From: Hysterangium stoloniferum
Lineage: Eukaryota > Basidiomycota > Agaricomycetes > Hysterangiales > Hysterangiaceae
Reading direction: 5' to 3'
DNA: 64,000 bases
NCBI GenBank assembly: GCA_015178975.1
Contig: WHVD01000186.1
Location: 86,717-150,716, forward strand
Shown here: one piece after another, positions 1 to 42,595 of the stretch
Position numbering within the stretch: position 1 is the first letter of the stretch
How the letters are laid out: each line of letters opens with the position of its first letter
Notes under the pieces: generated by a model
What the model was told of the DNA's origin: nothing
Database searches by the model: none
What the model saw: the letters and a program-made list of their open reading frames with translations, nothing else
Program-made: the position numbers and the translations under genes

Positions 1-206
1 GGCGGAGACGTCTGGCCATTTAGACGCTGGCCCCTACATACATCCACATACCCCACATAGCCCACACAATGTTTACTTCTTTCTCGGCAAAAATATTAGG
101 GACTTGGCCAAATAAAATAAAAACCCTTTGGACTCTTTGGACTCTTCTACCAAAAATAGTGGACCCTCCACCTCAGGGGAGAATACCCTATATATATATA
201 TATAGG
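1..206 (+). promoter_or_regulatory. Promoter-like module, paralogous to the ankyrin gene promoter
   Basis: No gene is visible. On the plus strand, positions 170-187 are identical over 18 bp to the sequence upstream of the ankyrin gene (13773-13790, opposite strand), and both are followed in the same relative orientation by a TATATA tract (188-206 here). Just upstream, both also carry a 'TCTTCTAC-AAAAAT' type motif. I infer a promoter copy of a related gene whose body has been displaced by the LTR pair that starts at about 207. The seen part is the shared sequence; promoter function is inference. Confidence 0.4.
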
Positions 207-7384: not shown

Positions 7385-7765
7385 ATGTGCACTGAAAGAG
7401 TCGCAAGAGCCTTGGAGGACTATATGATAGAACCCAAATCCGTTAGGTTAATATATACCTATCTTCACCAGGGATCTAGAGGATGAAGAATGGATAATGG
7501 AGGGTATAATCTTACAGAACGAAGATAGGACCATTCTCACTGTGCCCATCACAGCTATCTCTAAGGAGAGGGAACCTTGCCACTAGCTAATCTGACTCCA
7601 ATTTCCCACATCATAAGGAAAGGAGAAATTATCAGCTTAATTCATAATGCTAAAATGTGGGCTCAGAAACCTCAGTCCCCAGTGGAAAGGGATTTGATGT
7701 GGGTTGTGAGTACTAAAATCGCTCATTTCATAGAAAGCATCTCCAAATTAGAGATGGACTGAAGC
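7385..7765 (+). pseudogene. Retroelement gag-pol remnant (linker between protease and RT)
   Basis: The plus strand encodes, with interruptions, a stretch resembling the segment after the aspartic protease in the Gypsy-2 polyprotein of this window (an 'EPKSVRLIYT' start, a 'EWIMEGIILQNED' middle, then 'LTPISHIIRKGEII'). Its counterpart in Gypsy-2 reads 'ISPESISAIPV' and ends 'VHIHEGQILGY'. The open part is 7577-7762. No protease, RT or integrase motif remains. The assignment rests on this distant resemblance only. Confidence 0.4.
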
Positions 7766-8290
7766 TTTAACCCTGAGCCACCAGTGACACCTCCAGAGGT
7801 TGAGACAGCAGACGATTTCAACCCTTGTGCACAAACACCTCAATATATATAAATAGATGGCCTCTACCATCCATCTCCTCTCATTCTGACTTTCCCAATC
7901 ATCCACTCATCCAAACTATCAAGCATCTATACTTGCCAGTATCTTCTGACTCTGCTCTATCTCATCTTGTTCTCTGTTTGCATTGATTGCTTGGACTGTG
8001 AGCATGAGTCATGATTCTTGTTTTTTTTGTTACAACTTTGATTCTGATAATGTTTTTATTTGTCTCTCTTGATCTGAAACAATTCACTTATTAACCTCCT
8101 GGTTGCTTTCCCCTTTCATCCAAGCCTCTGTGCTCTAGATACACTTCTCCTCTAGACAGCTACCTTATATTGCTTGCATCCTGCTGCAAAGGTGAGTGCA
8201 CTATAGTATTTATTTAGCTAGACATCCATTATTTTATTTGTTGCCTCCTTTTTCATACGTGACCTGGCTTCGATGCTTTTATTTATGCTC
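7766..8290 (+). other. Non-coding stretch with a TATA-like core, possible LTR piece
   Basis: There is no gene here. A CAATATATATAAATAG core near 7841-7856 is followed by pyrimidine-rich, AUG-poor sequence, as in many LTR promoters. It follows the retroelement remnant, so it may be part of that element. It also lies immediately beyond the 3' end of the ankyrin gene on the other strand. Confidence 0.3.
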
Positions 8291-8300
8291 TATTGAGCTG

Positions 8301-11300
8301 CTATGCCTCTCTTTTGGGACTAGTATTAGAACACACCTTCGAGATCAAGAATCCTTTATCACCAAGGTATTTCACAATCTTGATGTGCCCCCTCTTTGAT
8401 GCTGCAACCAGCGCTCGATCTCCGTCTGATCCTACATGAGAATATTCAGATTTAAGGACAAGAAGGCTAGCCTGAACGTCAACACACCTTCGAGATCGAG
8501 ACTCGCTCCTTTATCACCAAGGTATTCCACAACCTTGATGTGCCCCGCCCGTGATGCTGCAACCAGCGCTGGATCTCCGTTTGATCCTACATGAGAATAT
8601 CCAGATTTAAGGACAAGAAGGCTAGCCTAAATATCGACACACCTTTGAGATCGAGACTCGCTCCTTTATCACCAAGGTATTGAACAATCCTGATGTGCCC
8701 CCTCTTTGATGCTGCAACCAGCGCTCGATCTCCGTCTGATCCTACATGAGAATATCCAGATTTAAGGACAAGAAGGCTAGCCTGAATATCGACACACCTT
8801 CGAGATCGAGACTCGCTCCGTTCTCACCAAGGTATTTAACAACCGCGATGCGCCCCTCCCGTGATGCTGCAACCAGCGCTGGATCTCCGTTTGATCCTAC
8901 ATGAGAATATCCAGATTTAAGGACAAGAAGGCTAGCCTGAATATCGACACACCTTTGAGATCGAGACTCGCTCCGTTATCACCAAGGTATTTCACAATCT
9001 TGATGTGCCCCCTCTTTGATGCTGCAACCAGCGCTCGATCTCTCTGTGATCCTACATGAGAATATCCAGATTTAAGGACAAGAAGGCTAGCCTGAATATC
9101 GACACACCTTGGAGATCGAGACTCGCTCCATTATCACCAAGGTATTTAACAACCTCGATGTGCCCCTCCCGTGATGCTGCAACCAGCGCTCGTTCTCCGT
9201 ATGATCCTACATGAAAATATCGAGATTTAAGGACAAGACTACCCTGAAAATGAACACACCTTGGAGATCAAGACTCGCTCCTTTATCACCAAGGTATTTC
9301 ACAACCTCGATGTGCCCCTCCCGTGATGCTGCAACCAACGCTCGTTCTCCCCAAAGTCCTGCATGAGAATATCCAGATTTAAGGACAAGAAGGTTAGCCT
9401 GAATATGAACACACCTTCGAGATCAAGACTCGCTCCTTTATCACCAAGGTATTTCACAACCTCAATATGCCCCGCCTGTGATGCTACAACCAGCGCTCGA
9501 TCTCCGTTTGATCCTACATGAGAATATCCAGATTTAAGTACAAGAAGGCTAGCCTGAACGTGAACACACCTTGGAGATCAAGACTCGCTCCGTTATCACC
9601 AAGGTATTTAACAACCTCGATGTGCCCCGCCCGTGATGCTGCAACCAGCGCTCGATCTTCGTTGTATCCTACATGAGAATATCCAGATTTAAGGACAAGA
9701 AGGTTAGTCTGAATATCGACACACCTTTGAGATCGAGACTCGCTCCGTTATCACCAAGGTATTTTACAACCTCGATGTGCCCATTCTTTGATGCTACAAC
9801 CAGCGCTCGTTCTCCGTATGATCCTACATGAGAATATCCAGATTTAAGGACAAGACTACCCTGAAAATGAACACACCTTGGAGATCAAGACCCACTCCTT
9901 TATCACCAAGGTATTTCACAACCTCGATGCGCCCATTCTGTGATGCTACAAGCAGCGCTGGTTGTCCGTCTGATCCTACATGAGAATATCCAGATTTAAG
10001 GATAAGAAGGCTAGCCTGAACGTGAACACACCTTTGAGATCGAGACTCGCTCCTTTATCACCTAGGTATTTCACAACCTCGATGTGCCCATTCTGTGATG
10101 CTACAACCAGCGCTCGGTCGCTGTATGATCCTACATGAGAATATCCAGATTTAAGTACAAGAAGGCTATCCTGAACGTGAACACACCTTGGAGATCAAGA
10201 CTCGCTCCGTTATCACCAAGGTATTTAACAACCTCGATGTGCCCCGCCCGTGATGCTGCAACCAGCGCTCGATCTTCGTTGTATCCTACATGAGATTATC
10301 CAGATTTAAGGACAAGAAGGCTAGTCTGAATATCGACACACCTTTGAGATCGAGACTCGCTCCTTTATCACCAAGGTATTTAACAACCTCGATGTGCCCC
10401 TTCCGTGATGCTGCAACCAGCGCTCGTTCTCCGTATGATCCTACATGAGAATATCCAAATTTAAGGACAAGAAGGCTAGCCTGAATATTGACACACCTTT
10501 GAGATCGAGACTCGCTCCGTTATCACCAAGGTATTTCACAACCTCGATGTGCCCATTCTTTGATGCTACAAGCAGCGCCGGATCTCCGTCTGATCCTACA
10601 TGAGAATATCCAGATTTAAGGACAAGAAGGCTAGCCTGAATATCGACACACCTTCGAGATCGAGATTTGCTCCTTTATCACCAAGGTATCTCACAACCTC
10701 GATGTGCCTCGCCCGTGATGCTACAACCAGCGCTCGATCTCCGTTTGATCCTACATGAGAATATCCGGATTTAAGGACAAGAAGGCTAGCCTGAACGTGA
10801 ACACACCTTGGAGATCAAGACTCGCTCCGTTATCACCAAGGTATTTAACAACCTCGATGTGCCCCCTCTTTGATGCTGCAACGAGCGCTCGATCTCCGTT
10901 TGATCCTACATGAGAATATCCAGATTTAAGGACAAGAAGGCTAGCCTGAATATCGACACACCTTCGAGATCGAGACATGCTCCTTTATCACCAAGGTATT
11001 CAACAACCTCGATGTGCCCCGCCCGTGATGCTGCAACCAACGCTCGTTCTCCCCATGATCCTGCATGAGAATATCCAGATTTAAGGACAAGACTATGCTG
11101 AAAATGAACACACCTCGGAGATCAAGACTCACTCCTTTATCACCAAGGTATTTCACAACCTCAATGTGCCCATTCTCTGATGCTACAAGCAGTGCTGGGT
11201 GTCCGTCTGATCCTACATGAGAATATCCAGATTTAAGGATAAGAAGGCTAGCCTGAACGTGAACACACCTTCGAGATCGAAACTCGCTCCTTTATCACCT

Positions 11301-13647
11301 AGGTATTTCACAACCTCGATGTGCCCATTCTGTGATGCTACAACCAGCGCTCCGTCGCTGTATGATCCTACATGAGAATATTCAGGTTTAAGGACAAGAA
11401 GGCTAGCCTGAATATCGACACACCTTCGAGATAAAGCCTCGCTCCTTTATCACCAAGGTATTTCACAACCTCGAAGTGCCCCGCCCGTGATGCTGCAACC
11501 AGCGCTCGATCTCCGTTTGATCCTACATGAGAATATCCAGATTTAAGGACAAGAAGGCTAGCCTGAACGTGAACACACCTTCGAGATCGAGACTCGCTCC
11601 TTTATCACCAAGGTATTGAACAATCCTGATGTGCCCCCTCTTTGATGCTGCAACCAGCGCTCGATCTCCGTCTGATCCTACATGAGAATATCCAGATTTA
11701 AGGACAAGAAAGCTAGGCTGAATATGAAGATACCTTTGAGATCGAGACTCGCTCCTTTATCACCAAGGTATTTAACGACCTCGATGTGCCCCGCCCGTGA
11801 TGCTGCAACCAGTGCCCGATCTCCGTCTGATCCTAAATCAAAATATCCAGATTTAAGCACAAGACGGATAGGCTGAATATGAACATCCCTTCGAGATCGA
11901 GACACGCTCCCTCATCGCCCAGGTATTTCACCATTTCAAGGTCTCCCTTCTTTGAGCATACAAGCAGTGCTGAGCTAAGATATGCTCCTGTGTAATTCCA
12001 GTTAATGTTGAGTCACTCTTAGAAGCACTGCATACCTTGATCCCTGCCAGGTTCATTTCGTCTAACCAATACCTTTACCATTTCACCCTTCCCCTGTTCT
12101 GCCAGAAACTCGAGAGCTGTCGTTTCAAAACCATTTATACCTTCATAAGAATTACTCTTTTTAAAGTCATTGTTCTGGCAATACCTCACTTACGCAGTGC
12201 TATATCGGTAGCATCGGTAGCATTATTGTTCACCAAGAATTCCACGACCTCCAGGTCCCCCTGCTTCACAGCTGCTGCAACTGCAGTCACGCCCCTCTGA
12301 TCTAACCCAGTCTCTCCAGATTGATGAAAACATGGGAAGGAAGAAAGTCATACCTTTTGTATTGACAGGCGCACCTCCCTCAATCAGATTCTTGAACCCC
12401 TTGACTCTGCCGTTGAGTATGGCATCTCGGAACATCTCTTCCAACTTCCGTCCATCTTCTATACGCTCTTGAATCATTCTTTCTCGCCGTCGCCCAAAAT
12501 CTTCCAAAACGTCACGCAGAGGGACAAGGAGGAGTAACATTGCAAGTATTTGCCCAAATGTCCAGGTTAATTCTCCCGGCTCCTGCATTGGTCGGTTCCT
12601 TCGAATAGTGGCCTCTGTATCAATGATAAATATGACATTGATCGCTGCAAGAGATAGCAGGCAAAGAGAAATCGGAAAAATGCGACATATTTTCAGTTTC
12701 ATGCGATTGGGATACTGAAGGGAGAAAAAGGAAACAAGAATGGAGAAACTGGTGTTGGTAGGTGGGGCTGAGTCGTATTTGCGATTGAATCTAATGTAGA
12801 AAAGAAGCACGAGACTAATTGGAATGATAATGTTGAGTATTGGAACGAGAACGAGAGTGTAAATGCAGATGGAGAAGCTGCGTAGGCCGTTTGATGTAAG
12901 TGGAACCGCGTGACCTAGAACGACAATGGCTGGAGATGTTAAACAGGGAGTATTCGGAGCCACGCCAAAAGCAGTAGGATCACTCCAGAGCCAGATCCCG
13001 ACCCCGGCCATAAGTGACAGGTGGATGATGCCAAGAAAGATCACGAATTTATCGGGAAGCGCTTGCTGCGTCTTGTCATTGCCATCGCTGTTTTGAGGTG
13101 TCAATCCCTTTTGAAGAGATAGGAACTTGTGAATCCGTCCCGTCCAACTTTGCGATTCCTCCTCGAGGAGTGGATGGTGCCCTTCGACATCGGCGGAATG
13201 CATAACCCTACTACGACTCCCTTTGAACACTCGGAGAAAATCACAAAATACGCCGCACCAGAATCGCCCTCTCAAGGCGCGTTCGGGGGAGAGATTGGTT
13301 CTGTGGTGAATATAGAGCAAAAGGTAGATGAATAGATTGGTGTTGTTCATCCAACTCAAGTTGAGGATGATAGCGGCGTGGAAAGAGGTGATCCGTTGAG
13401 TCACAGCCTCGAAGATTGCTGAGACTAGGATGGCGAGAGCGGTGATGAGAATTGTCGACGCCTGGATTTCGACGGAAAAAAGTTCATCGATTGTGACTTC
13501 ACCGTCGGAGATGGCGTAGAAGGCAGGTAGAAAGCTCATGAGATTCTGAGCGTAGATGGCGATCCGTACTCCTATACCGGAGACGTCTGGATTTGCTGGA
13601 AGGCAGATTTGGGACCCGTTAGACGACATGAACACTGGGTATGGCAA
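8301..13647 (-). CDS. Seven-segment membrane protein with long C-terminal ankyrin array
   Basis: Exon 1 (13647-12354) encodes 431 residues with seven hydrophobic segments at about 25-45, 62-82, 90-113, 200-221, 257-285, 322-343 and 362-378, then a charged 'RRRERMIQERIEDGRK' linker and the start of an ankyrin repeat. Exons 12301-12194, 12140-12036 and 11987-11889 carry diverged ankyrin repeats. Next come 22 exons of exactly 99 nt, one ankyrin repeat each ('GDRALVAAS..GHIEVV', 'YLGDKGASLDL'), and a last exon ending at a TAG at 8301-8303 after a 4-nt deletion that gives a new short tail. The full model is about 1300 residues. The N-terminal family ('GIGVRIAIY', 'ILITALAILVSAI') is known from many agaricomycetes, function unknown. 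Caveat: the donor at 11887-11888 reads GG instead of GT; if unspliced, the protein stops at the TAG in that intron. Confidence 0.75.
8337..11987 (-). repeat. Tandem 155-bp exon-intron modules encoding ankyrin repeats
   Basis: Acceptor sites recur at 155-bp spacing (152 where the intron is 53 nt): introns start, on the plus strand, at 8432, 8587, 8742, 8897, 9052, 9207, 9359, 9514, 9669, 9824, 9976, 10131, 10286, 10441, 10596, 10751, 10906, 11061, 11213, 11368, 11523, 11678 and 11833. Each module is a 99-nt exon plus a 53-56 nt intron. On the coding strand, introns begin GTGTGTTC (GTATCTTC once, GGATGTTC once) and end ATGTAG, ATGCAG or TTTAG. Every intron splits a glycine codon after its first base, so all exons are symmetric phase 1-1. 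Introns are as similar to one another as exons, which indicates recent duplication or conversion of the whole module. Confidence 0.9.
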
Positions 13648-19064: not shown

Positions 19065-20387
19065 TGTAATGTATTCAGGGGATTCTCTTAGATAGCTCAA
19101 TATATGCTATAGTGTCACAGAGCTTCAACAATAAAACAAGCAAAGGTCCAGTAATTTAAATACTGATAGATTAATGAGCTGCGCTATGAAGCTTAAACAA
19201 CTCAAATCAATGCTTATTTTGATTATTGAAAGGTTCAATAGAACTGTGTATGACTCTTTTAGCAAATACAAGAACTATTCCTTGAGAATAGGGGCTGGAA
19301 GCTGAATATATGCGCAGTAACTTGGCAGAGACTTGATATAAGAGCTTCGGATTCTTGTATGCTTATTTGTAACTATTAATAGTTATTTAACAAGGTGTTA
19401 AATAATTTATTAATAGAGAAAATAAATTGTATTGGATTATCTGAGTGCTTGTACTTGATTAATTCAATAAACTTAGGGCTGGGCCTTGAGTAATCTAGTA
19501 TTGGCAGGGATTTCAGTAAAGATACTTAGATACTTATTAGGTTTATTATCTAATTAATAAGCCTAAAGGGTAGCTGTGAGGCTGGGGAACTTAGATGATT
19601 AGCTAAGTCCAAGAGTTGCTGACAAAGATTCAAGATGCTGCAAGTGTAGGTGCTTGCAGTGAGTGTATCAGACTAAGGCTATTATTGTCCTTAGGATGAT
19701 TAGATAAGCTGGTGCTGTGCTGCAAATATGTGTGTGATAGATTGTTTTATTGGAAACTTGGCCCTCCTTATATACATTTTGATAACTCAATGATTAGCTA
19801 ACTATTTAGTTTATGAGGTCATTAGTGAGATCATAATGACCTCATATTCTACTCATTATTTACCCTTTGTTTAACATGTGATTCCCTTCTCTGAGACAAG
19901 GGTTCTAAGCTTTGGCTTGAACATGAAGGTTCAAGGCCGCGGTCCCGGGGACGGAAGCAAACGATGAGTCGGCGGAACCTAATAATGACTCGGGTAGTCA
20001 CGTTCGTGACTTGTGTGACTCGGGTAGTCACATTCGTGACTTGTGTGACTCGGGTGGTCACATTCGTGACCTTTGTGACATCCCGACACTGGAGGCTTAT
20101 GTAATAAGTCACATGACTCCAAAAATGCGCAAACTAGGCTGCACAAGGTGCCGAAAGGTAATAACTAAGTAAATAAAATATAAATAATTAGTTAAAAATT
20201 ATAATAAATTAACTAAGATATAATAGCATAATATGAGTTCATATATGCTATTATTTATGCGAAGTTAAAAGGAATAAGGCCTATTTTTCACAATAAACAT
20301 AATAAAAATACAATAGAAATTAAAGAAAATATTAAATAATTCAAAGAAAATTAAGAGAATATTATGAGATAATGTTGATACATCACA
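19065..20387 (-). repeat. Gypsy-2 LTR 1
   Basis: On the minus strand it starts TGTGATGTATC and ends ATACATTACA. It contains three tandem copies of a 30-bp unit built on GACTCGGGTAGTCAC (about 19987-20075). As the lowest-coordinate copy in a minus-strand element, it is the outer 3' LTR. Confidence 0.85.
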
Positions 20388-20405
20388 AAATCCCCTCTTC
20401 CTTTT
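20388..20405 (-). other. Polypurine tract of Gypsy-2
   Basis: On the minus strand AAAAGGAAGAGGGGATTT directly precedes the LTR start TGTGATG, the expected place for the plus-strand primer. The same tract precedes LTR 2 (about 27137-27154). Confidence 0.7.
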
Positions 20406-20593
20406 GACTGAGTCATAATACTCAATCGCTTTCTGAGAATTAAATAATACTTTGTTTTTAGATGAAACATAAATAATACTTTTGTTTTGAATGATAAAAG
20501 AATTAAGATGCTAATCTAATCAATTATCATAGTTGGGAGAAATAGGAATAACGTTGACTATTTCTTCCTGTTGATTAATTATTGACGATGAAG

Positions 20594-20779
20594 TCATTGC
20601 TTGATCACTTGGTGGGGAAAAGTTGAAAATACTATCGGTTTTAGAGCTGGATAAAGCATATGAGAAGCTGGAACTTCATTTTGAAAAGGTTTCCCTTCGA
20701 TGATTTTGATAGAGTAGTCCAATTCGGTGACTGGGGAGAGTTCCATATGAAATTTTAAACTTTTTTGATGTGGAAACAT
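20594..20779 (-). other. Small open frame downstream of the Gypsy-2 polyprotein
   Basis: This 61-codon frame, repeated identically at 27343-27528, lies between the polyprotein stop and the polypurine tract. It could be the tail of the deleted pol region or untranslated sequence. No RNase H or integrase motif (such as the HHCC finger or DDE residues) is present in it. Confidence 0.25.
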
Positions 20780-20854
20780 TTTCTTTTACTTGAATATATA
20801 AGAATGAAAGAAATAATGGCGCATATAGGGTGCATATATTGATGTTTTGGTTAT

Positions 20855-23800
20855 TTAGAGGCCGAGTTGGCCAGTGAGAGCTCTGTGAGTCTCGGATGGC
20901 AGCTGTGCACTCTTTCTTTTGTTTTTCCAGTCACAAAGAATTGCAGGAGCATTCTTCAGATCCTTTTTGAGTAATGAGAATAACAGGTTGACAACCCAAG
21001 CATAAAATGGAATATATGCTGAGAAATAGACCATCATTCCCAAGAATGTTTGAAGCTCATGAACATTTCGGGGTTCTTCTAATTGCAAAATAGCATCGAT
21101 CTTCTCCTTATTAGTAGATAATCCAAGTCGGGAGACTTTCTGCCTTAATAACTGAAGTGATTGGTAGGGAAAATGGCATTTTGAGGAAGATAAGGTCATT
21201 TTAGAAGCAATGATTGCTTTGAGGACTGATTCTGTATGCATTAAATGATCTTCAAAGGTCTTAGAAAAGATGACAATATCATCAATGTAGACCAAAGCAA
21301 ATATCCAGAGGAATGGGGCAAGGATATTCTGCATCACTCTCTGGAAGACTGCTGGTCCATTTCTGAATCCAAAGGGCATTCTCAAGAATTGATAAAGCCC
21401 TCTGTGTGTTCTGAAAGCTGTCTTCTCTTTATCTTTTGATGCCATTTCCAATTGAGTAAAACCGGCTAATGCATCTAGTGTAGATAACCACTGAGATCCA
21501 GTTAATGCTTGTAATATATCATCTTGCCGAGACAGTGGAAATTCATCTGGAATTACTTGAGCATTAAGTTGCCTAAAGTCAATTACCATCCTGGGCTTTC
21601 CTTGCCGATAAATGATAAATGCAGGAGCACCCCAAGGGCTTTTGGAAGGCTCAATGACTTGTAATTTGACCCATTTATCCATCTGCTCATCAATAATCTC
21701 TCTATTCTTAGGTGAGGCAAAGAATGGAGGTTGGGAAATTTCTCTTGTTCCTTCTCTAAGATTTATCTCCACCTTGGCAGGATAGTGGCCTAATCTTCCA
21801 TCTAATCCAAAGGCTAATCGATTCTTCCATAAGATAGCCTTTAGTTGATTCTTCTGCTCCAATGATAAATCCTTATTGATATCAATCTCTTCAAAGAATT
21901 TATCAGAGCTAATATCATCAGGAGGAGTTTCTGCTGTCTTTGGGCCACCTTCTGATTCTCCTTGAGTATTAGGCTGATCAATAGAATTGTATTTCGGATT
22001 GAGAAGTTGGCTAGCAATGCTCTTGATCAAATAGGAATGAGCACTTAGATGGGATAGTTGCTCATTGTCTAAATGTTCCAAGCTATCTAACCATGTTTCC
22101 GGATTATGGGAGTAGCCTAGTATTTGACCTTCATGTATATGCACTGGGAAACTTGAGAAATTGGAGATATATAACTGAGGATTTTTCCGAGTAATGATAG
22201 AATCAGGAGTAGCATAAAAATCTTGGTCTCCTCTGTTAGATAAGAATATCTTCTCTATATATGCTATATCAGATCCCTTTGGGAAGGACAGGGTCACTGG
22301 TATAGCACTTATAGACTCTGGAGAAATGGTTATATCAATGCTAGACCTAACTGAATTCTCAGTTTCCTTAGATTGAATTGATTTCTTTATTTTTTTGTTC
22401 TTCCTATGAGCCTTAATTTTTCTGGCAAGATCCGAGAGCTTTGGAGTGACATTAACTTGGAAAGCTTCACCCCTTTCATCCTTTAATAAAGGTCCAATAG
22501 AATTTTGAACTTTGATAGACTTTCCACTAGAGCCAAAGCTCAAGATTGAACCTTCTTCTCCTCGGATCACTGAGATTGCATATTGGTCTGCAAAATCATT
22601 GCCAATAATGAATGGAGTAGTCATTCCTTTGACTACATAAGCTTCAATGATTAATTCGACTGGCCCTTCACTTGTATCAAAGTAAATAGGCAAGGAAATA
22701 AATCCGGATATTGTAGAGGCTCCAGTTACTTGAATTAAATTGATTCTCTGTCCATTTTTAATCTTTGGAGGATTTTCGAGTTGAGATAAAGTAGAGTGAG
22801 ATATCAATGAAATGTCTGCTCCAGAATCCACTATAATATTTGTAGGATTTTTGCCATAACTTCCAAGCCATCCTTGAGTGGAAGTGGCTTGTGCTCCAAG
22901 GAAAGCACAACTGGGAGGCCTGGCCATCAGTCTTGGCAAAGAAAATATTTCCCTCTTGGTGGAATTAGCTAGTTTGATAATATAGTTCTTGACATTGAAG
23001 ATTCCATTCAACATTTTCCGCTGTAATTTCTGCTCAGAGGCCCTTTTCTGCACAGTAGTTCCCATGTTATCTGAATATATGCTGGTTTTCCTTTCAGATT
23101 CAATCTCTGATCCCCTCTGACTCGACTCAGGGTCTGAAGACTGGTTATTGGAAGTGGAAACCATGTTAACTGATGTGCATATATTCAGTGCTTGAGATGA
23201 TTCTGTGTTGGAATGCTCTTCTGAATTCAATTCAATCAAATCAGATGATTCCTCTATAGTTTCTTGAGAGCTCTCTTCTTCTGAGCTACAATTGTAATAG
23301 AGGTCATCATATTCTGTTTGAGCTTGAATATATTCTTCAGTTTGACTAATAAAATTTGTCCGAGCATTTCTTATTCCTTTCTTGGAGTACTTGCAGTCAT
23401 AGTCCCAATGCTTTGGGCTGCCACAATGCCTACAAGGCCTAGCCTTCTTGGATTCCGGAGTATTCCCTTTAGAGACAATTGAGTCATCTCTTGGGAACTG
23501 AGGTTTCCCAATATTAGGACTCCAACCAATTAAAGTGGATCTTGCAAACTTGAAACGGTTAGGTCTTGAGGCAAAGCCTTTAGGCTCTCTAAGTGACTGC
23601 TCCAGTTGCTTCAATCTTCTGTCTATGGAAGAGGTAGAAGAAGTGAAGAAGGATGTTTGAAGGGCTTCCTCATGATGCTTAATGGCAGTTGCAAATTCTC
23701 TCAAACTCCTATACCGGTGAGTGTCTAGAATGGCTGCCCAGAACTCAGGAGCTCCATTCATCACTTCCATGATTGTTTCAGAGTCTGAAAGCCTGTATAC

Positions 23801-25555
23801 CATGCTGAGAAGCTCTGTTTTCCGAATGAAATAGCTTGTAGGAGATTCAGTGGAGTGACCTGCTTCCCGGTAGTTTGCTTTATTAGCTCTACTTTTCTGC
23901 CGGTCAAGCCAAGACCTATTCATGTAATAAACACAAATAGCCCTTCTCAAGGTACTCCAAGAGACTGTAATCTCACGGCGGTAATCTGTTGGTAATGACC
24001 AAAACCATAAGTCGGCTTCCTTCTCAAGCCTGAGAGGGATTAATTGTCCCAACTGTTGGAATATATAGTTGCTTCGTTCAGATAGATTATTGATCTTGAA
24101 TATCCATTTGGACAAAGTGTCTGGATCACCATCCCACTTGGGAATAATTTCCGGCTTCAGTTTCAGATCAAAATGAGCTTCTTGTATGCTCTTAGCACTT
24201 GTAGTATCAGGTAGCTTGGGTGGCCCCTTCATAGAATTAAATCTTCTAGGGCCACTAGGACCATTATCTCCATCATCTCCATCACCAGGAGGACCTCCTC
24301 CTCCTTGAGAGATGTTTGATTCTCCAAATAAACCTGACCTATGAGGTCTTCTATATGATGTTCTCCTATCCCTCTCAGGATCATAAGGTATATGCAACCC
24401 AAGAGGTTCTCTGACAGGCTCTTTCCGAGGAATTGTAGTTCCTAAACCTGTAGTAGTATAAGGCAATGAAGTCTGCCTTTCAGGAGGTCTTCTAGTTTGA
24501 GGCTCTTGTAATAACTCTGACAATCTTCGAGATTCTGACATATATGCAGGCAGATTATCATAAGGGGAGTGATCACTTGAATGAGGACTGATTGTATCTT
24601 CAGAAATATGCTTCCTAGCCTCTTGGAAGCCTCGTTCTTCATGTAGAGGCACTCCCTTTTTAGTTTCATGCTTCAAAATGCTATAATCGATTTCTTCTCC
24701 TTCAGAAGGTAATTCAAATTTTACTTCACTTGTCATTTCTTTAGGAGTTGAATGGATTATGCCTATAGGTTCATGACTAGGTGGTTTGGAAGGTGATTCT
24801 ATTTCTGGAGGAAGCTGAATCTGGCTGATCCCCTCAGACTCGACCTGGGCTGGAGAAGCCTCTTGCTCAGGTACTTCAGTTTCACCCATAGGAATTAGAG
24901 CCTTGTGGAAATATAAATATGCCAGAGTATTCTCAATCTCTTCACGATAGAGGACTGAGATCACTTCAAAGTCTTCTTGATTCCATGCTTCTCTAGGATT
25001 ATCATTTGGTCCCCATTTGGGTAGTTTAGGTACTTGTATGCACCTTGAAGTGAGTATAGGTGTTGCCTTATCAATATGCTCTTGAAGTATCTCCTGTAAT
25101 AGTTCATAACATCCAGGATCTAAATGATAGCCAGCATCTTCTAATGGCAATTCTCTATTTTCCTCACTAGGGATTCCTCCCAATAGGTCTTCTAACAAAT
25201 AGAGAGCATGAGCCGCTACCTTTTCAGCCTGCTTGGGTAAAGGCATATAGGGTAGACTCTCTGTGTTTGGAATATATCTCTTCCCAAGTTTCAAAATGAG
25301 TTCTCTCCTAGACTTGTGTGGAAAGGTTGTCTCATACAGTCTCCTCAATCTCACTGTACTTGGATAGAGGTAAGTAAGATCTCCTGGTCTGGCTCTATCA
25401 TTCCTTAATAGATGCTTTTGTGGAGTAGCAGAGAAACTGTGGACTGGAGTATTGGGAATAGTAACATTAAGATGGCGGAAATGTTCAGGAGTTGTGGTAG
25501 GTGCTGGAGAGACTAATCTCTCTGGGTGTAGTTGTATGCTAGGTGTTTTGGACAT
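20855..25555 (-). CDS. Gypsy-2 Gag-protease-RT polyprotein, copy 1 (no RNase H or integrase)
   Basis: An intact 1566-codon frame. The N-terminal half is Gag-like and proline/serine-rich, with a nucleic-acid binding zinc knuckle 'CRHCGSPKHWDYDC' (CX2CX4HX4C). Next are an aspartic protease site 'NIIVDSGADISLIS', a reverse transcriptase with 'KPRMVIDFRQLNAQ', 'FLRMPFGFRNGPAVFQRVM' and the catalytic 'VYIDDIVIFS' about 144 residues from the end, and the RT connection 'LQTFLGMMVYFSAYIPFYAW'. It stops just after 'LLKKDLKNAPAIL', where RNase H should start, and only about 470 bp remain before the LTR. RNase H and integrase are therefore deleted, and movement would need enzymes supplied in trans. Start: first ATG of the frame ('MSKTPSIQ'), about 260 bp inside the 5' LTR. 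Confidence 0.85.
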   Translation of the reverse strand: MSKTPSIQLHPERLVSPAPTTTPEHFRHLNVTIPNTPVHSFSATPQKHLLRNDRARPGDLTYLYPSTVRLRRLYETTFPHKSRRELILKLGKRYIPNTESLPYMPLPKQAEKVAAHALYLLEDLLGGIPSEENRELPLEDAGYHLDPGCYELLQEILQEHIDKATPILTSRCIQVPKLPKWGPNDNPREAWNQEDFEVISVLYREEIENTLAYLYFHKALIPMGETEVPEQEASPAQVESEGISQIQLPPEIESPSKPPSHEPIGIIHSTPKEMTSEVKFELPSEGEEIDYSILKHETKKGVPLHEERGFQEARKHISEDTISPHSSDHSPYDNLPAYMSESRRLSELLQEPQTRRPPERQTSLPYTTTGLGTTIPRKEPVREPLGLHIPYDPERDRRTSYRRPHRSGLFGESNISQGGGGPPGDGDDGDNGPSGPRRFNSMKGPPKLPDTTSAKSIQEAHFDLKLKPEIIPKWDGDPDTLSKWIFKINNLSERSNYIFQQLGQLIPLRLEKEADLWFWSLPTDYRREITVSWSTLRRAICVYYMNRSWLDRQKSRANKANYREAGHSTESPTSYFIRKTELLSMVYRLSDSETIMEVMNGAPEFWAAILDTHRYRSLREFATAIKHHEEALQTSFFTSSTSSIDRRLKQLEQSLREPKGFASRPNRFKFARSTLIGWSPNIGKPQFPRDDSIVSKGNTPESKKARPCRHCGSPKHWDYDCKYSKKGIRNARTNFISQTEEYIQAQTEYDDLYYNCSSEEESSQETIEESSDLIELNSEEHSNTESSQALNICTSVNMVSTSNNQSSDPESSQRGSEIESERKTSIYSDNMGTTVQKRASEQKLQRKMLNGIFNVKNYIIKLANSTKREIFSLPRLMARPPSCAFLGAQATSTQGWLGSYGKNPTNIIVDSGADISLISHSTLSQLENPPKIKNGQRINLIQVTGASTISGFISLPIYFDTSEGPVELIIEAYVVKGMTTPFIIGNDFADQYAISVIRGEEGSILSFGSSGKSIKVQNSIGPLLKDERGEAFQVNVTPKLSDLARKIKAHRKNKKIKKSIQSKETENSVRSSIDITISPESISAIPVTLSFPKGSDIAYIEKIFLSNRGDQDFYATPDSIITRKNPQLYISNFSSFPVHIHEGQILGYSHNPETWLDSLEHLDNEQLSHLSAHSYLIKSIASQLLNPKYNSIDQPNTQGESEGGPKTAETPPDDISSDKFFEEIDINKDLSLEQKNQLKAILWKNRLAFGLDGRLGHYPAKVEINLREGTREISQPPFFASPKNREIIDEQMDKWVKLQVIEPSKSPWGAPAFIIYRQGKPRMVIDFRQLNAQVIPDEFPLSRQDDILQALTGSQWLSTLDALAGFTQLEMASKDKEKTAFRTHRGLYQFLRMPFGFRNGPAVFQRVMQNILAPFLWIFALVYIDDIVIFSKTFEDHLMHTESVLKAIIASKMTLSSSKCHFPYQSLQLLRQKVSRLGLSTNKEKIDAILQLEEPRNVHELQTFLGMMVYFSAYIPFYAWVVNLLFSLLKKDLKNAPAILCDWKNKRKSAQLPSETHRALTGQLGL

Positions 25556-25795
25556 AGTAGAATTATTTCTAGTCCTACTAAGGGTAAATCGAATACTGTT
25601 AGGTGGTAAGAGAGTAGGAGTATTCGATGGAGGAATAGGTGTATTGATTTGATTCGAAGAAAGCTTTTGTAGCTTGGATGTAACTTGATTTAGTCTTGAT
25701 TTGATTTCAAAATGTTCTGGATGAAAGCCTTGGGCCAGAATATATGTGGGTTACTGAAAGATTGCTGCAACAATAGATTGAAACAAGATTTTCCC

Positions 25796-25813
25796 AGAGC
25801 GTCCACCAATTTT
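25796..25813 (-). other. Candidate primer-binding region of Gypsy-2
   Basis: Immediately inside the LTR end (ATACATTACA on the minus strand) comes AAAA then TTGGTGGACGCTCTGGG. A TGG a few bases after the LTR is where tRNA primers pair. I could not match it to a particular tRNA; a self-primed mechanism is also possible. Confidence 0.35.
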
Positions 25814-27136
25814 TGTAATGTATTCAGGGGATTCTCTTAGATAGCTCAATATATGCTATAGTGTCACAGAGCTTCAACAATAAAACAAGCAAAGGTCCAG
25901 TAATTTAAATACTGATAGATTAATGAGCTGCGCTATGAAGCTTAAACAACTCAAATCAATGCTTATTTTGATTATTGAAAGGTTCAATAGAACTGTGTAT
26001 GACTCTTTTAGCAAATACAAGAACTATTCCTTGAGAATAGGGGCTGGAAGCTGAATATATGCGCAGTAACTTGGCAGAGACTTGATATAAGAGCTTCGGA
26101 TTCTTGTATGCTTATTTGTAACTATTAATAGTTATTTAACAAGGTGTTAAATAATTTATTAATAGAGAAAATAAATTGTATTGGATTATCTGAGTGCTTG
26201 TACTTGATTAATTCAATAAACTTAGGGCTGGGCCTTGAGTAATCTAGTATTGGCAGGGATTTCAGTAAAGATACTTAGATACTTATTAGGTTTATTATCT
26301 AATTAATAAGCCTAAAGGGTAGCTGTGAGGCTGGGGAACTTAGATGATTAGCTAAGTCCAAGAGTTGCTGACAAAGATTCAAGATGCTGCAAGTGTAGGT
26401 GCTTGCAGTGAGTGTATCAGACTAAGGCTATTATTGTCCTTAGGATGATTAGATAAGCTGGTGCTGTGCTGCAAATATGTGTGTGATAGATTGTTTTATT
26501 GGAAACTTGGCCCTCCTTATATACATTTTGATAACTCAATGATTAGCTAACTATTTAGTTTATGAGGTCATTAGTGAGATCATAATGACCTCATATTCTA
26601 CTCATTATTTACCCTTTGTTTAACATGTGATTCCCTTCTCTGAGACAAGGGTTCTAAGCTTTGGCTTGAACATGAAGGTTCAAGGCCGCGGTCCCGGGGA
26701 CGGAAGCAAACGATGAGTCGGCGGAACCTAATAATGACTCGGGTAGTCACGTTCGTGACTTGTGTGACTCGGGTAGTCACATTCGTGACTTGTGTGACTC
26801 GGGTGGTCACATTCGTGACCTTTGTGACATCCCGACACTGGAGGCTTATGTAATAAGTCACATGACTCCAAAAATGCGCAAACTAGGCTGCACAAGGTGC
26901 CGAAAGGTAATAACTAAGTAAATAAAATATAAATAATTAGTTAAAAATTATAATAAATTAACTAAGATATAATAGCATAATATGAGTTCATATATGCTAT
27001 TATTTATGCGAAGTTAAAAGGAATAAGGCCTATTTTTCACAATAAACATAATAAAAATACAATAGAAATTAAAGAAAATATTAAATAATTCAAAGAAAAT
27101 TAAGAGAATATTATGAGATAATGTTGATACATCACA
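25814..27136 (-). repeat. Gypsy-2 LTR 2, shared between the two internal regions
   Basis: This 1323-bp copy has the same ends and three 30-bp subrepeats as LTR 1. It serves as the 5' LTR of internal copy 1 and the 3' LTR of internal copy 2, as expected for a tandem array. No target duplication flanks it. Confidence 0.85.
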
Positions 27137-27603
27137 AAATCCCCTCTTCCTTTTGACTGAGTCATAATACTCAATCGCTTTCTGAGAATTAAATAATACT
27201 TTGTTTTTAGATGAAACATAAATAATACTTTTGTTTTGAATGATAAAAGAATTAAGATGCTAATCTAATCAATTATCATAGTTGGGAGAAATAGGAATAA
27301 CGTTGACTATTTCTTCCTGTTGATTAATTATTGACGATGAAGTCATTGCTTGATCACTTGGTGGGGAAAAGTTGAAAATACTATCGGTTTTAGAGCTGGA
27401 TAAAGCATATGAGAAGCTGGAACTTCATTTTGAAAAGGTTTCCCTTCGATGATTTTGATAGAGTAGTCCAATTCGGTGACTGGGGAGAGTTCCATATGAA
27501 ATTTTAAACTTTTTTGATGTGGAAACATTTTCTTTTACTTGAATATATAAGAATGAAAGAAATAATGGCGCATATAGGGTGCATATATTGATGTTTTGGT
27601 TAT

Positions 27604-30600
27604 TTAGAGGCCGAGTTGGCCAGTGAGAGCTCTGTGAGTCTCGGATGGCAGCTGTGCACTCTTTCTTTTGTTTTTCCAGTCACAAAGAATTGCAGGAGCA
27701 TTCTTCAGATCCTTTTTGAGTAATGAGAATAACAGGTTGACAACCCAAGCATAAAATGGAATATATGCTGAGAAATAGACCATCATTCCCAAGAATGTTT
27801 GAAGCTCATGAACATTTCGGGGTTCTTCTAATTGCAAAATAGCATCGATCTTCTCCTTATTAGTAGATAATCCAAGTCGGGAGACTTTCTGCCTTAATAA
27901 CTGAAGTGATTGGTAGGGAAAATGGCATTTTGAGGAAGATAAGGTCATTTTAGAAGCAATGATTGCTTTGAGGACTGATTCTGTATGCATTAAATGATCT
28001 TCAAAGGTCTTAGAAAAGATGACAATATCATCAATGTAGACCAAAGCAAATATCCAGAGGAATGGGGCAAGGATATTCTGCATCACTCTCTGGAAGACTG
28101 CTGGTCCATTTCTGAATCCAAAGGGCATTCTCAAGAATTGATAAAGCCCTCTGTGTGTTCTGAAAGCTGTCTTCTCTTTATCTTTTGATGCCATTTCCAA
28201 TTGAGTAAAACCGGCTAATGCATCTAGTGTAGATAACCACTGAGATCCAGTTAATGCTTGTAATATATCATCTTGCCGAGACAGTGGAAATTCATCTGGA
28301 ATTACTTGAGCATTAAGTTGCCTAAAGTCAATTACCATCCTGGGCTTTCCTTGCCGATAAATGATAAATGCAGGAGCACCCCAAGGGCTTTTGGAAGGCT
28401 CAATGACTTGTAATTTGACCCATTTATCCATCTGCTCATCAATAATCTCTCTATTCTTAGGTGAGGCAAAGAATGGAGGTTGGGAAATTTCTCTTGTTCC
28501 TTCTCTAAGATTTATCTCCACCTTGGCAGGATAGTGGCCTAATCTTCCATCTAATCCAAAGGCTAATCGATTCTTCCATAAGATAGCCTTTAGTTGATTC
28601 TTCTGCTCCAATGATAAATCCTTATTGATATCAATCTCTTCAAAGAATTTATCAGAGCTAATATCATCAGGAGGAGTTTCTGCTGTCTTTGGGCCACCTT
28701 CTGATTCTCCTTGAGTATTAGGCTGATCAATAGAATTGTATTTCGGATTGAGAAGTTGGCTAGCAATGCTCTTGATCAAATAGGAATGAGCACTTAGATG
28801 GGATAGTTGCTCATTGTCTAAATGTTCCAAGCTATCTAACCATGTTTCCGGATTATGGGAGTAGCCTAGTATTTGACCTTCATGTATATGCACTGGGAAA
28901 CTTGAGAAATTGGAGATATATAACTGAGGATTTTTCCGAGTAATGATAGAATCAGGAGTAGCATAAAAATCTTGGTCTCCTCTGTTAGATAAGAATATCT
29001 TCTCTATATATGCTATATCAGATCCCTTTGGGAAGGACAGGGTCACTGGTATAGCACTTATAGACTCTGGAGAAATGGTTATATCAATGCTAGACCTAAC
29101 TGAATTCTCAGTTTCCTTAGATTGAATTGATTTCTTTATTTTTTTGTTCTTCCTATGAGCCTTAATTTTTCTGGCAAGATCCGAGAGCTTTGGAGTGACA
29201 TTAACTTGGAAAGCTTCACCCCTTTCATCCTTTAATAAAGGTCCAATAGAATTTTGAACTTTGATAGACTTTCCACTAGAGCCAAAGCTCAAGATTGAAC
29301 CTTCTTCTCCTCGGATCACTGAGATTGCATATTGGTCTGCAAAATCATTGCCAATAATGAATGGAGTAGTCATTCCTTTGACTACATAAGCTTCAATGAT
29401 TAATTCGACTGGCCCTTCACTTGTATCAAAGTAAATAGGCAAGGAAATAAATCCGGATATTGTAGAGGCTCCAGTTACTTGAATTAAATTGATTCTCTGT
29501 CCATTTTTAATCTTTGGAGGATTTTCGAGTTGAGATAAAGTAGAGTGAGATATCAATGAAATGTCTGCTCCAGAATCCACTATAATATTTGTAGGATTTT
29601 TGCCATAACTTCCAAGCCATCCTTGAGTGGAAGTGGCTTGTGCTCCAAGGAAAGCACAACTGGGAGGCCTGGCCATCAGTCTTGGCAAAGAAAATATTTC
29701 CCTCTTGGTGGAATTAGCTAGTTTGATAATATAGTTCTTGACATTGAAGATTCCATTCAACATTTTCCGCTGTAATTTCTGCTCAGAGGCCCTTTTCTGC
29801 ACAGTAGTTCCCATGTTATCTGAATATATGCTGGTTTTCCTTTCAGATTCAATCTCTGATCCCCTCTGACTCGACTCAGGGTCTGAAGACTGGTTATTGG
29901 AAGTGGAAACCATGTTAACTGATGTGCATATATTCAGTGCTTGAGATGATTCTGTGTTGGAATGCTCTTCTGAATTCAATTCAATCAAATCAGATGATTC
30001 CTCTATAGTTTCTTGAGAGCTCTCTTCTTCTGAGCTACAATTGTAATAGAGGTCATCATATTCTGTTTGAGCTTGAATATATTCTTCAGTTTGACTAATA
30101 AAATTTGTCCGAGCATTTCTTATTCCTTTCTTGGAGTACTTGCAGTCATAGTCCCAATGCTTTGGGCTGCCACAATGCCTACAAGGCCTAGCCTTCTTGG
30201 ATTCCGGAGTATTCCCTTTAGAGACAATTGAGTCATCTCTTGGGAACTGAGGTTTCCCAATATTAGGACTCCAACCAATTAAAGTGGATCTTGCAAACTT
30301 GAAACGGTTAGGTCTTGAGGCAAAGCCTTTAGGCTCTCTAAGTGACTGCTCCAGTTGCTTCAATCTTCTGTCTATGGAAGAGGTAGAAGAAGTGAAGAAG
30401 GATGTTTGAAGGGCTTCCTCATGATGCTTAATGGCAGTTGCAAATTCTCTCAAACTCCTATACCGGTGAGTGTCTAGAATGGCTGCCCAGAACTCAGGAG
30501 CTCCATTCATCACTTCCATGATTGTTTCAGAGTCTGAAAGCCTGTATACCATGCTGAGAAGCTCTGTTTTCCGAATGAAATAGCTTGTAGGAGATTCAGT

Positions 30601-32304
30601 GGAGTGACCTGCTTCCCGGTAGTTTGCTTTATTAGCTCTACTTTTCTGCCGGTCAAGCCAAGACCTATTCATGTAATAAACACAAATAGCCCTTCTCAAG
30701 GTACTCCAAGAGACTGTAATCTCACGGCGGTAATCTGTTGGTAATGACCAAAACCATAAGTCGGCTTCCTTCTCAAGCCTGAGAGGGATTAATTGTCCCA
30801 ACTGTTGGAATATATAGTTGCTTCGTTCAGATAGATTATTGATCTTGAATATCCATTTGGACAAAGTGTCTGGATCACCATCCCACTTGGGAATAATTTC
30901 CGGCTTCAGTTTCAGATCAAAATGAGCTTCTTGTATGCTCTTAGCACTTGTAGTATCAGGTAGCTTGGGTGGCCCCTTCATAGAATTAAATCTTCTAGGG
31001 CCACTAGGACCATTATCTCCATCATCTCCATCACCAGGAGGACCTCCTCCTCCTTGAGAGATGTTTGATTCTCCAAATAAACCTGACCTATGAGGTCTTC
31101 TATATGATGTTCTCCTATCCCTCTCAGGATCATAAGGTATATGCAACCCAAGAGGTTCTCTGACAGGCTCTTTCCGAGGAATTGTAGTTCCTAAACCTGT
31201 AGTAGTATAAGGCAATGAAGTCTGCCTTTCAGGAGGTCTTCTAGTTTGAGGCTCTTGTAATAACTCTGACAATCTTCGAGATTCTGACATATATGCAGGC
31301 AGATTATCATAAGGGGAGTGATCACTTGAATGAGGACTGATTGTATCTTCAGAAATATGCTTCCTAGCCTCTTGGAAGCCTCGTTCTTCATGTAGAGGCA
31401 CTCCCTTTTTAGTTTCATGCTTCAAAATGCTATAATCGATTTCTTCTCCTTCAGAAGGTAATTCAAATTTTACTTCACTTGTCATTTCTTTAGGAGTTGA
31501 ATGGATTATGCCTATAGGTTCATGACTAGGTGGTTTGGAAGGTGATTCTATTTCTGGAGGAAGCTGAATCTGGCTGATCCCCTCAGACTCGACCTGGGCT
31601 GGAGAAGCCTCTTGCTCAGGTACTTCAGTTTCACCCATAGGAATTAGAGCCTTGTGGAAATATAAATATGCCAGAGTATTCTCAATCTCTTCACGATAGA
31701 GGACTGAGATCACTTCAAAGTCTTCTTGATTCCATGCTTCTCTAGGATTATCATTTGGTCCCCATTTGGGTAGTTTAGGTACTTGTATGCACCTTGAAGT
31801 GAGTATAGGTGTTGCCTTATCAATATGCTCTTGAAGTATCTCCTGTAATAGTTCATAACATCCAGGATCTAAATGATAGCCAGCATCTTCTAATGGCAAT
31901 TCTCTATTTTCCTCACTAGGGATTCCTCCCAATAGGTCTTCTAACAAATAGAGAGCATGAGCCGCTACCTTTTCAGCCTGCTTGGGTAAAGGCATATAGG
32001 GTAGACTCTCTGTGTTTGGAATATATCTCTTCCCAAGTTTCAAAATGAGTTCTCTCCTAGACTTGTGTGGAAAGGTTGTCTCATACAGTCTCCTCAATCT
32101 CACTGTACTTGGATAGAGGTAAGTAAGATCTCCTGGTCTGGCTCTATCATTCCTTAATAGATGCTTTTGTGGAGTAGCAGAGAAACTGTGGACTGGAGTA
32201 TTGGGAATAGTAACATTAAGATGGCGGAAATGTTCAGGAGTTGTGGTAGGTGCTGGAGAGACTAATCTCTCTGGGTGTAGTTGTATGCTAGGTGTTTTGG
32301 ACAT
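27604..32304 (-). CDS. Gypsy-2 Gag-protease-RT polyprotein, copy 2
   Basis: Its translation is identical to the polyprotein at 20855-25555 over all 1566 residues, with the same zinc knuckle, protease DSG and RT YIDD motifs and the same end before RNase H. Because both copies share the deletion, it pre-dates the tandem arrangement. Complete identity over 4.7 kb means the duplication is very recent or that the copies are homogenised. Confidence 0.85.
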   Translation of the reverse strand: MSKTPSIQLHPERLVSPAPTTTPEHFRHLNVTIPNTPVHSFSATPQKHLLRNDRARPGDLTYLYPSTVRLRRLYETTFPHKSRRELILKLGKRYIPNTESLPYMPLPKQAEKVAAHALYLLEDLLGGIPSEENRELPLEDAGYHLDPGCYELLQEILQEHIDKATPILTSRCIQVPKLPKWGPNDNPREAWNQEDFEVISVLYREEIENTLAYLYFHKALIPMGETEVPEQEASPAQVESEGISQIQLPPEIESPSKPPSHEPIGIIHSTPKEMTSEVKFELPSEGEEIDYSILKHETKKGVPLHEERGFQEARKHISEDTISPHSSDHSPYDNLPAYMSESRRLSELLQEPQTRRPPERQTSLPYTTTGLGTTIPRKEPVREPLGLHIPYDPERDRRTSYRRPHRSGLFGESNISQGGGGPPGDGDDGDNGPSGPRRFNSMKGPPKLPDTTSAKSIQEAHFDLKLKPEIIPKWDGDPDTLSKWIFKINNLSERSNYIFQQLGQLIPLRLEKEADLWFWSLPTDYRREITVSWSTLRRAICVYYMNRSWLDRQKSRANKANYREAGHSTESPTSYFIRKTELLSMVYRLSDSETIMEVMNGAPEFWAAILDTHRYRSLREFATAIKHHEEALQTSFFTSSTSSIDRRLKQLEQSLREPKGFASRPNRFKFARSTLIGWSPNIGKPQFPRDDSIVSKGNTPESKKARPCRHCGSPKHWDYDCKYSKKGIRNARTNFISQTEEYIQAQTEYDDLYYNCSSEEESSQETIEESSDLIELNSEEHSNTESSQALNICTSVNMVSTSNNQSSDPESSQRGSEIESERKTSIYSDNMGTTVQKRASEQKLQRKMLNGIFNVKNYIIKLANSTKREIFSLPRLMARPPSCAFLGAQATSTQGWLGSYGKNPTNIIVDSGADISLISHSTLSQLENPPKIKNGQRINLIQVTGASTISGFISLPIYFDTSEGPVELIIEAYVVKGMTTPFIIGNDFADQYAISVIRGEEGSILSFGSSGKSIKVQNSIGPLLKDERGEAFQVNVTPKLSDLARKIKAHRKNKKIKKSIQSKETENSVRSSIDITISPESISAIPVTLSFPKGSDIAYIEKIFLSNRGDQDFYATPDSIITRKNPQLYISNFSSFPVHIHEGQILGYSHNPETWLDSLEHLDNEQLSHLSAHSYLIKSIASQLLNPKYNSIDQPNTQGESEGGPKTAETPPDDISSDKFFEEIDINKDLSLEQKNQLKAILWKNRLAFGLDGRLGHYPAKVEINLREGTREISQPPFFASPKNREIIDEQMDKWVKLQVIEPSKSPWGAPAFIIYRQGKPRMVIDFRQLNAQVIPDEFPLSRQDDILQALTGSQWLSTLDALAGFTQLEMASKDKEKTAFRTHRGLYQFLRMPFGFRNGPAVFQRVMQNILAPFLWIFALVYIDDIVIFSKTFEDHLMHTESVLKAIIASKMTLSSSKCHFPYQSLQLLRQKVSRLGLSTNKEKIDAILQLEEPRNVHELQTFLGMMVYFSAYIPFYAWVVNLLFSLLKKDLKNAPAILCDWKNKRKSAQLPSETHRALTGQLGL

Positions 32305-32562
32305 AGTAGAATTATTTCTAGTCCTACTAAGGGTAAATCGAATACTGTTAGGTGGTAAGAGAGTAGGAGTATTCGATGGAGGAATAGGTGTATTGATTTG
32401 ATTCGAAGAAAGCTTTTGTAGCTTGGATGTAACTTGATTTAGTCTTGATTTGATTTCAAAATGTTCTGGATGAAAGCCTTGGGCCAGAATATATGTGGGT
32501 TACTGAAAGATTGCTGCAACAATAGATTGAAACAAGATTTTCCCAGAGCGTCCACCAATTTT

Positions 32563-33885: not shown

Positions 33886-33893
33886 ACAGGCCT

Positions 33894-42590: not shown

Positions 42591-42595
42591 CAAAG

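Follow-up and report, generated by a model that had tools for sequence, protein, structure and literature searches.

A NACHT-ANK family of Tuber melanosporum with codon-sized microexons was reportedly described by Iotti in 2012. The accessible parts of PMC9815663 and PMC4986451 likewise present that family as a fungal ankyrin array split into many small exons. According to the second of these papers, as far as it is accessible, the WD, ANK and TPR repeats of Podospora anserina NLR (STAND) proteins (from nwd, ANK and TPR genes) have high repeat identity, concerted evolution and diversification of the concave surface, and their number varies among strains; the word intron is absent from its main text. 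In human NLRP3, solenoid repeats of an exon-modular leucine-rich repeat (LRR) region lie on consecutive short exons, and exon skipping was demonstrated (PMC6642158, in its available part). Here we describe a locus of Hysterangium stoloniferum (Hysterangiales), an ectomycorrhizal, truffle-like forest fungus (PMC7550596, the genome paper, in its available part). It lies in a window of 64,000 nucleotides (C97:86717-150716, where C97, like C24, C201 and so on below, is a contig label) of a 111-Mb genome in 554 contigs, and consists of ankyrin repeats each carried by its own exon. Our reading, to which we give a probability of about two in three, is that the locus would be the C-terminal part of a gene for a TM-ANK protein (ankyrin repeats behind a multi-pass membrane N-terminus), in which frame-neutral 155-bp exon-plus-intron units are reshuffled by recombination and contact residues are diversified, probably to form a recognition surface.

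The predicted gene is on the minus strand; its ATG is at 13629 and its stop codon, TAG, at 8301. Its predicted protein has 1298 residues and requires removal of the first array intron, which begins with GG. The first three introns of the gene (52, 53, and 48 nt) are all GT-AG. The parts of the gene, with positions counted in the window, are as follows.

12354 to 13629, minus strand: exon 1, an open frame of 1276 nt (425 codons) for a hydrophobic multi-pass N-terminal region
12194 to 12301, minus strand: exon 2, 108 nt, phase 1, degenerate ankyrin-like by eye, with a GT-AG intron on each side (52 and 53 nt)
12036 to 12140, minus strand: exon 3, 105 nt, phase 1, degenerate ankyrin-like by eye, with a GT-AG intron on each side (53 and 48 nt)
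11889 to 11987, minus strand: first array exon, a divergent ankyrin repeat of 99 nt up to GG, from stepwise parsing
11887 to 11888, minus strand: start of the first array intron, reading GG and not GT; the equivalent sites in the C24 and C201 paralogues are GT
8432 to 11832, minus strand: 22 modules, each a 99-nt ankyrin exon and a 53- or 56-nt intron, with AG in 22/22, GT in 22/22 and no stops
Exon starts of modules 1 to 11, minus strand: 11832, 11677, 11522, 11367, 11212, 11060, 10905, 10750, 10595, 10440, 10285
Exon starts of modules 12 to 22, minus strand: 10130, 9975, 9823, 9668, 9513, 9358, 9206, 9051, 8896, 8741, 8586
8301 to 8431, minus strand: terminal exon (131 nt), comprising the final ankyrin module, from which 4 nt are deleted, a short tail, and TAG at 8301

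Tandem Repeats Finder reported a single array at 8329-11931 (period 155, 23.3 copies, score 5173), and stepwise parsing of the minus strand from 11987 to 8301 resolved it into 24 ankyrin exons and 23 phase-1 introns. The stepwise parser favours AG acceptors and replaced a fuzzy-match parser that found just four modules each in C24 and C201; an exon length of 99 is its default where no GT is found, as in the first module of C97 and the last modules of C24 and C201. In C97, AG precedes all 24 modules and GT starts 22 of the 23 introns. Every internal exon with both splice sites is 99 nt long (22/22), the first exon measures 99 nt up to the GG, and the array introns are 56 nt in 20 cases and 53 nt in three, which gives units of 155 or 152 bp. 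A preliminary description of the locus as an ankyrin array of repeated exon-intron units, with 99-nt exons and 23 introns, was thus correct for the internal exons and for the spacing of the units, but it has to be amended at both ends, where the first intron starts with GG and the 131-nt terminal exon holds a module 4 nt short. Its placing of all array introns in phase 1 within a glycine codon was borne out, the junction codon being GGA at 23/23 joins. It had also stated that a retained intron brings in the in-frame TAG of its acceptor; this holds for 21 of the 23 introns, and the remaining two end in CAG. The GG donor, the membrane-type exon 1, the pattern of contact residues, the paralogues and a HEAT array in the same window went unmentioned there.

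A Pfam scan of four window modules placed both PF12796 (E 1.7e-21) and PF00023 (E 9.8e-20) above the cut-off. The best lag-33 identity of the C97 repeats is 0.833 over 132 residues, and similarity is not confined to neighbours: the non-adjacent modules at 10285 and 9668 have one difference in 155. When the genome was searched with the 155-nt unit, there were 53 matches at four ankyrin loci only, with 24 modules in C97, 18 in C24, eight in C201, and two in C111. Module number thus differs among these paralogues. The 4-nt deletion in the last C97 module (8431), after which the frame continues to the TAG at 8301, is also present in the C111 copy. C111 is 97.6% identical to window positions 7551-8330 and its array borders minisatellite-like sequence, so that it is better regarded as a truncated copy than as proof of contraction.

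Selection statistics were calculated for 22 of the 24 C97 modules (without the divergent first and the terminal one) and for 15 of the 18 C24 modules (without the first, the last, and a 100-nt one). Although each C97 exon differs from the consensus at 5-14 nt, stops were found in 0/22 modules, compared with 7.4 expected under the same number of random changes, and 0/2000 simulations were stop-free. The C24 result was in the same direction but weaker (0/15 modules against 4.0 expected, with 0.9% of simulations stop-free). In C24, 16/17 non-terminal modules have 99-nt exons, and the introns are 53, 56, 57, or 58 nt. We concluded from these results that the array exons behave as coding sequence. 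Among modules with 56-nt introns, the difference in C97 is 7.5% for introns and 13.1% for exons, whereas in C24 the order is reversed, with 18.6% for introns and 12.6% for exons; the earlier statement that introns are as similar as exons is to be corrected accordingly. Intron diversity in C97 peaks at positions 7-20 (0.185, as against 0.026-0.050 in other zones); in C24 the donor (0.073) and the acceptor (0.103) are the only zones of lower diversity, compared with 0.19-0.22 elsewhere.

The variation in both arrays is concentrated at ankyrin contact residues, which we take, from DARPin design, to be repeat positions 2, 3, 5, 13, 14, 26, and 33. Amino-acid diversity in C97 was 0.57 at these seven positions and 0.14 elsewhere (p = 5e-5), and in C24 it was 0.37 and 0.12, respectively (p = 0.006); this set was fixed after the variation had been glimpsed. 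A cross-array test, which is independent of the set, gave the same picture, as variable positions chosen in either C97 or C24 predicted those of the other array (p = 0.005 and 0.007). The proportion of nonsynonymous differences (pN) in C97 exceeded that of synonymous differences (pS) at the contacts (0.334 against 0.183), and the opposite was true of the framework (0.074 against 0.109).

Repeats are closer to one another within C97 and within C24 than between these paralogues, as in concerted evolution. For the 31 of 37 modules with 56-nt introns (19 from C97 and 12 from C24), the nearest neighbour lay in the same array for 29.5/31 exons and 30.7/31 introns, indicating that whole modules have been homogenised within each array. 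Exon differences were linked to those of the exon's own downstream intron (Mantel r = 0.29, p = 0.007, with no other lag above 0.147), and there was no linkage with the upstream intron (r = 0.05, p = 0.30). Taken with whole-unit differences between HEAT loci described below, these results support the original proposal that the unit of duplication is the exon-intron module. The accompanying proposal of a genomic route to changes in repeat number is also well supported, in part through the HEAT family and the paralogues rather than through strains. A four-module periodicity was detected (p = 0.017, best of five periods); duplication of four domains is noted as dominant in an ankyrin survey (PMC1553488, in its accessible part).

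We propose that the copied unit would be a symmetric phase-1 exon, corresponding to one ankyrin repeat, together with its intron, 155 bp in all. Recombination between near-identical modules could then make the array grow or shrink and could homogenise it, sometimes in blocks of several modules, and gain or loss of a whole unit, being frame-neutral, would leave an intact protein with an altered binding surface. Selection would keep the framework residues and diversify the contact residues, and the array might in this way provide a quickly reshuffled recognition surface, as in the repeat domains of fungal NLRs. The product would presumably be a membrane-anchored binding protein with an array reshaped by recombination, for which, by analogy, recognition of non-self or of a partner seems the likeliest role. 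Gain, loss or exchange of a unit probably reshapes what the predicted membrane protein binds.

The membrane part of this proposal comes from exon 1, in which five hydrophobic segments were found at the Kyte-Doolittle cut-off. Among 8000 scored candidates, 256 relatives of exon 1 had E values of 0.001 or better, and these were spread across Agaricomycetes; of the 120 relatives among the matches listed, 37 had ankyrin domains (counted by hand). An alignment of exon 1 with 29 of these 120 contained 48 invariant columns. The gene thus has the homologous multi-pass N-terminus followed by ankyrin repeats that characterises agaricomycete TM-ANK proteins. No Pfam family was above the cut-off for exon 1 (the one family listed was UPF0697, E 0.74), and NACHT or NB-ARC, the mark of a fungal NLR/STAND protein, was not found in exon 1; the scan covered exon 1 and not the 71 residues of exons 2-3. 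The best lag-33 identity exceeded 0.5 in 6 of the 59 listed relatives of at least 480 residues, although none reached the 0.83 of this protein, and homogenised TM-ANK arrays are therefore not unique to H. stoloniferum.

The same design occurs in a second repeat family of this genome, one array of which is in the window.

60428 to 63806, minus strand: HEAT array, phase-1 exons of 117 nt each with an intron of about 49 nt, 19 modules in the scan, ending at telomere-like repeats

In this array, AG, GT, and the length of 117 nt were present in 19/19 modules, there were no stops, and there was one 341-base gap of sub-threshold modules. The similarity threshold of the HEAT scan can skip decayed modules, and three gaps (341, 646, and 657 bases) were left. 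At 63807-64000 the contig ends in a telomere-like TTTAGGG heptamer (25 counted) abutting a truncated HEAT module; TTTAGGG is the plant-type telomere unit, and the hexamer TTAGGG is usual in fungi. HEAT units fell into at least 40 clusters, separated by more than 20 kb and distributed over 29 contigs, in searches that scored 40/324 and 150/915 candidates and in which a few matches (e.g., C523) may be other genes. The 82 modules passing the scan in four HEAT arrays had AG in 81, GT in 82, and 117 nt in 82, without stops; two HEAT loci, L063 and L064, end inside their arrays, and the module totals are partial for them. Hypervariable HEAT positions, analysed in 16/19, 18/20, 22/25, and 18/18 modules, recurred between arrays in 10/12 tests with p < 0.05; the 10-position sets themselves were picked on the same data and are circular, and the cross-array tests repeat them from one array to another. 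Module number was seen to differ between two HEAT loci, C545 and C212. Three modules in a row are identical in the two; beyond them C212 carries two additional whole modules, and there are single-module differences on either side of the shared block (in a module alignment with a gap cost chosen by the analyst). On one flank the pair has 96.7% identity over 850 bp, falling to 87% further out.

Many HEAT boundaries are read through without intron residues in the database proteins of Hysterangium, which were not mapped to the genome, and some of those models hold intron-like sequence. Open frames around the HEAT matches were all short (76 of 76 at no more than 215 residues), whereas those around the Ank_2 matches listed had at least 258 residues, the 90-position model favouring unbroken arrays, and TPR_10 matches were mostly in frames of hundreds to thousands of residues, with some in short ones. 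Long intronless TPR_10 arrays were observed on C157, C2, C464, and C1, with open frames of up to 4247 residues; a genome search with TPR_8 showed no regular array, its 14 matches being scattered. The short frames of the HEAT and TM-ANK arrays, compared with the long frames of TPR_10 and Ank_2, indicate that the one-exon-per-repeat layout belongs to particular families and is not genome-wide. A genome with both intron-bearing and intronless arrays makes it possible to ask, as a natural experiment, whether modules with introns change in number faster. A more general interpretation, which we offer tentatively and consider rather doubtful, is that membrane-anchored ankyrin proteins and unrelated HEAT proteins independently took on one repeat per symmetric phase-1 exon, each accompanied by an intron, as a general exon-cassette system for diversifying binding proteins, with contacts diversified by selection. 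If so, the layout would turn any recombination in an intron into a frame-safe swap of a binding module, and splicing might add further length variants.

Several observations weigh against the TM-ANK reading set out at the beginning. The whole-exon pN/pS of C97 was 1.12 with a bootstrap range of 0.61-2.10, so that positive selection is not significant and the claim of diversification rests on the contrast between positions; in C24, moreover, pN at the contacts (0.244) was barely greater than pS (0.221). One C24 exon is 100 nt, and C201 is decayed, with frameshifts, stops, and lost splice sites. No H. stoloniferum protein was among the best 120 matches listed in either search with this gene. Aligned modules of C545 and C212 outside the shared block mostly differ by 6-21%, and thus the two are not a clean allele pair; they are either paralogues or alleles that have diverged, with one block shared more recently. 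A second HEAT pair, C17 and C129, is 99.4% identical over 4,176 bp with no change of module number in the shared part; the match stops within module 18 of C129, and C17 continues for at least four more modules. Stops occur in 3/22 C17 and 3/18 C129 modules, and some splice sites are lost. The shared in-frame stops and lost splice sites lie in C17:148501-153500 and C129:105501-110500, and it seems that a decayed HEAT array has itself been duplicated. Finally, the GG at 11888-11887 would, if real, truncate the protein after one array repeat, since translation of a retained first array intron stops at the in-frame TAG at 11835-11833.

This last observation is the basis for a different account, in which the C97 copy would be a recently broken gene whose transcript stops in the first array intron, with the 23 downstream exons a fresh remnant in a mobile-element-rich region near a chromosome end. 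Both paralogues read GT where C97 reads GG; C201 shows what decay looks like, with stops in frame, one donor lost, GG at one acceptor and two exons of 101 nt; the C111 copy, a fragment of two modules, adjoins a minisatellite; the window holds tandem retroelement-like copies with telomere-like repeats at its end; and the listed matches to this gene include no H. stoloniferum protein. However, each of the 22 later donors is intact, as is every one of the 24 acceptors, internal frames are kept and there are no stops, so that the GG is either very recent or an assembly error, and a one-base assembly error would give the same appearance. We consider a broken gene unlikely, though by no means far-fetched. 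A non-coding 155-bp satellite without protein function, open by chance, would fit a contig end with other minisatellites and the fact that C97 introns are repeated as faithfully as exons. It is strongly contradicted by stop-free, frame-keeping exons, by framework pN below pS, by the contact-position pattern in both C97 and C24, by an upstream membrane exon with 256 relatives, and by C24, where introns range from 53 to 58 nt and yet 16/17 non-terminal exons are 99 nt. Given this evidence of frame and selection we rejected the satellite as very improbable. The near-identity of introns within C97 could also have arisen if they were mobile introner-like elements inserted separately into each repeat, but in that case linkage of each exon to its own downstream intron would not be expected, the 155-nt unit (the query being the whole unit and not the intron alone) is confined to four ankyrin loci, and the introns of the HEAT arrays of the same genome look unrelated to the ankyrin introns by eye. 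The linkage and the restriction to four loci led us to reject mobile introns, which we regard as scarcely credible.

Exon skipping, regulated or stochastic, could in principle yield many isoforms from one array in the manner of NLRP3. The array has a symmetric exon for each repeat, as that comparison demands (phase 1 at 23/23 joins, 22/22 internal exons of 99 nt), so that skipping would be frame-neutral, and its splice sites are near-identical. For human LRR genes, alternative splicing is stated to presuppose exonic modularity (PMC6642158), and the truffle NACHT-ANK family is said to diversify through splicing of its codon-sized microexons (PMC9815663, PMC4986451), in the accessible parts of these papers. 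On the other hand, with introns of 53-56 nt, compared with about 211 nt for a one-exon skip, splice sites would be expected to pair over the intron next to them. In transcript models of Schizophyllum commune, exon skipping makes up 1% of coding-region events, whereas a count of junctions found 1,527 skips in coding regions and 7,851 alternative sites (PMC5034255, in its available part), which makes the prior for skipping low rather than negligible. That skipping yields many isoforms from this array is, in our view, quite improbable.

The remainder of the window contains other repeated sequences. Positions 19065-27137 match 25814-33886 at 99.988% over 8073 bp, a retroelement-like tandem with a unit of 6749 bp that may consist of real copies or be an effect of assembly, and a related retroelement end is present at 42595-43605 (96.7%). 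Minisatellites are dense at 54116-57255, where one of them, at 55346-55549, repeats a 20-mer identically 10.2 times, and sequence resembling these minisatellites adjoins the C111 ankyrin fragment (L010 above about 2196). The segment 203-1255 is self-complementary, with a 1061-column alignment to its own reverse complement at 88%.

A literature search, made mostly without subscription journals and in texts available in part, found nothing on arrays of this kind in Hysterangium or on near-identical exon-per-repeat ankyrin or HEAT arrays in fungi. Shuffling repeat arrays are already known in fungi, and one exon plus one intron per repeat was not found described in that partial literature; the introns provide a comparison outside the protein code, and the roles of recombination and selection can thereby be separated. 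The locus shares with the P. anserina NLRs the features given at the outset, except that repeat number varies here among paralogues and there among strains, that NACHT/NB-ARC was not found in exon 1, and that each repeat here is its own exon. It differs from the Tuber family, which has 3-bp microexons, a NACHT protein, and reported alternative splicing, in having 99-nt exons (131 nt for the terminal one, with 108 and 105 nt before the array) and a predicted membrane protein. Compared with NLRP3, its modules are near-identical and tandemly homogenised, and are known from DNA alone. The plant ANK-TM protein Lr14a, which acts in resistance to a fungus, is likewise a membrane protein with an ankyrin array, but it has the order ANK then transmembrane (TM) and three exons (PMC7878491, in its available part). 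The agaricomycete TM-ANK proteins of Moniliophthora, Mycena, Leucocoprinus, and others have the same multi-pass N-terminus, at about 33-44% identity, often with ankyrin repeats.

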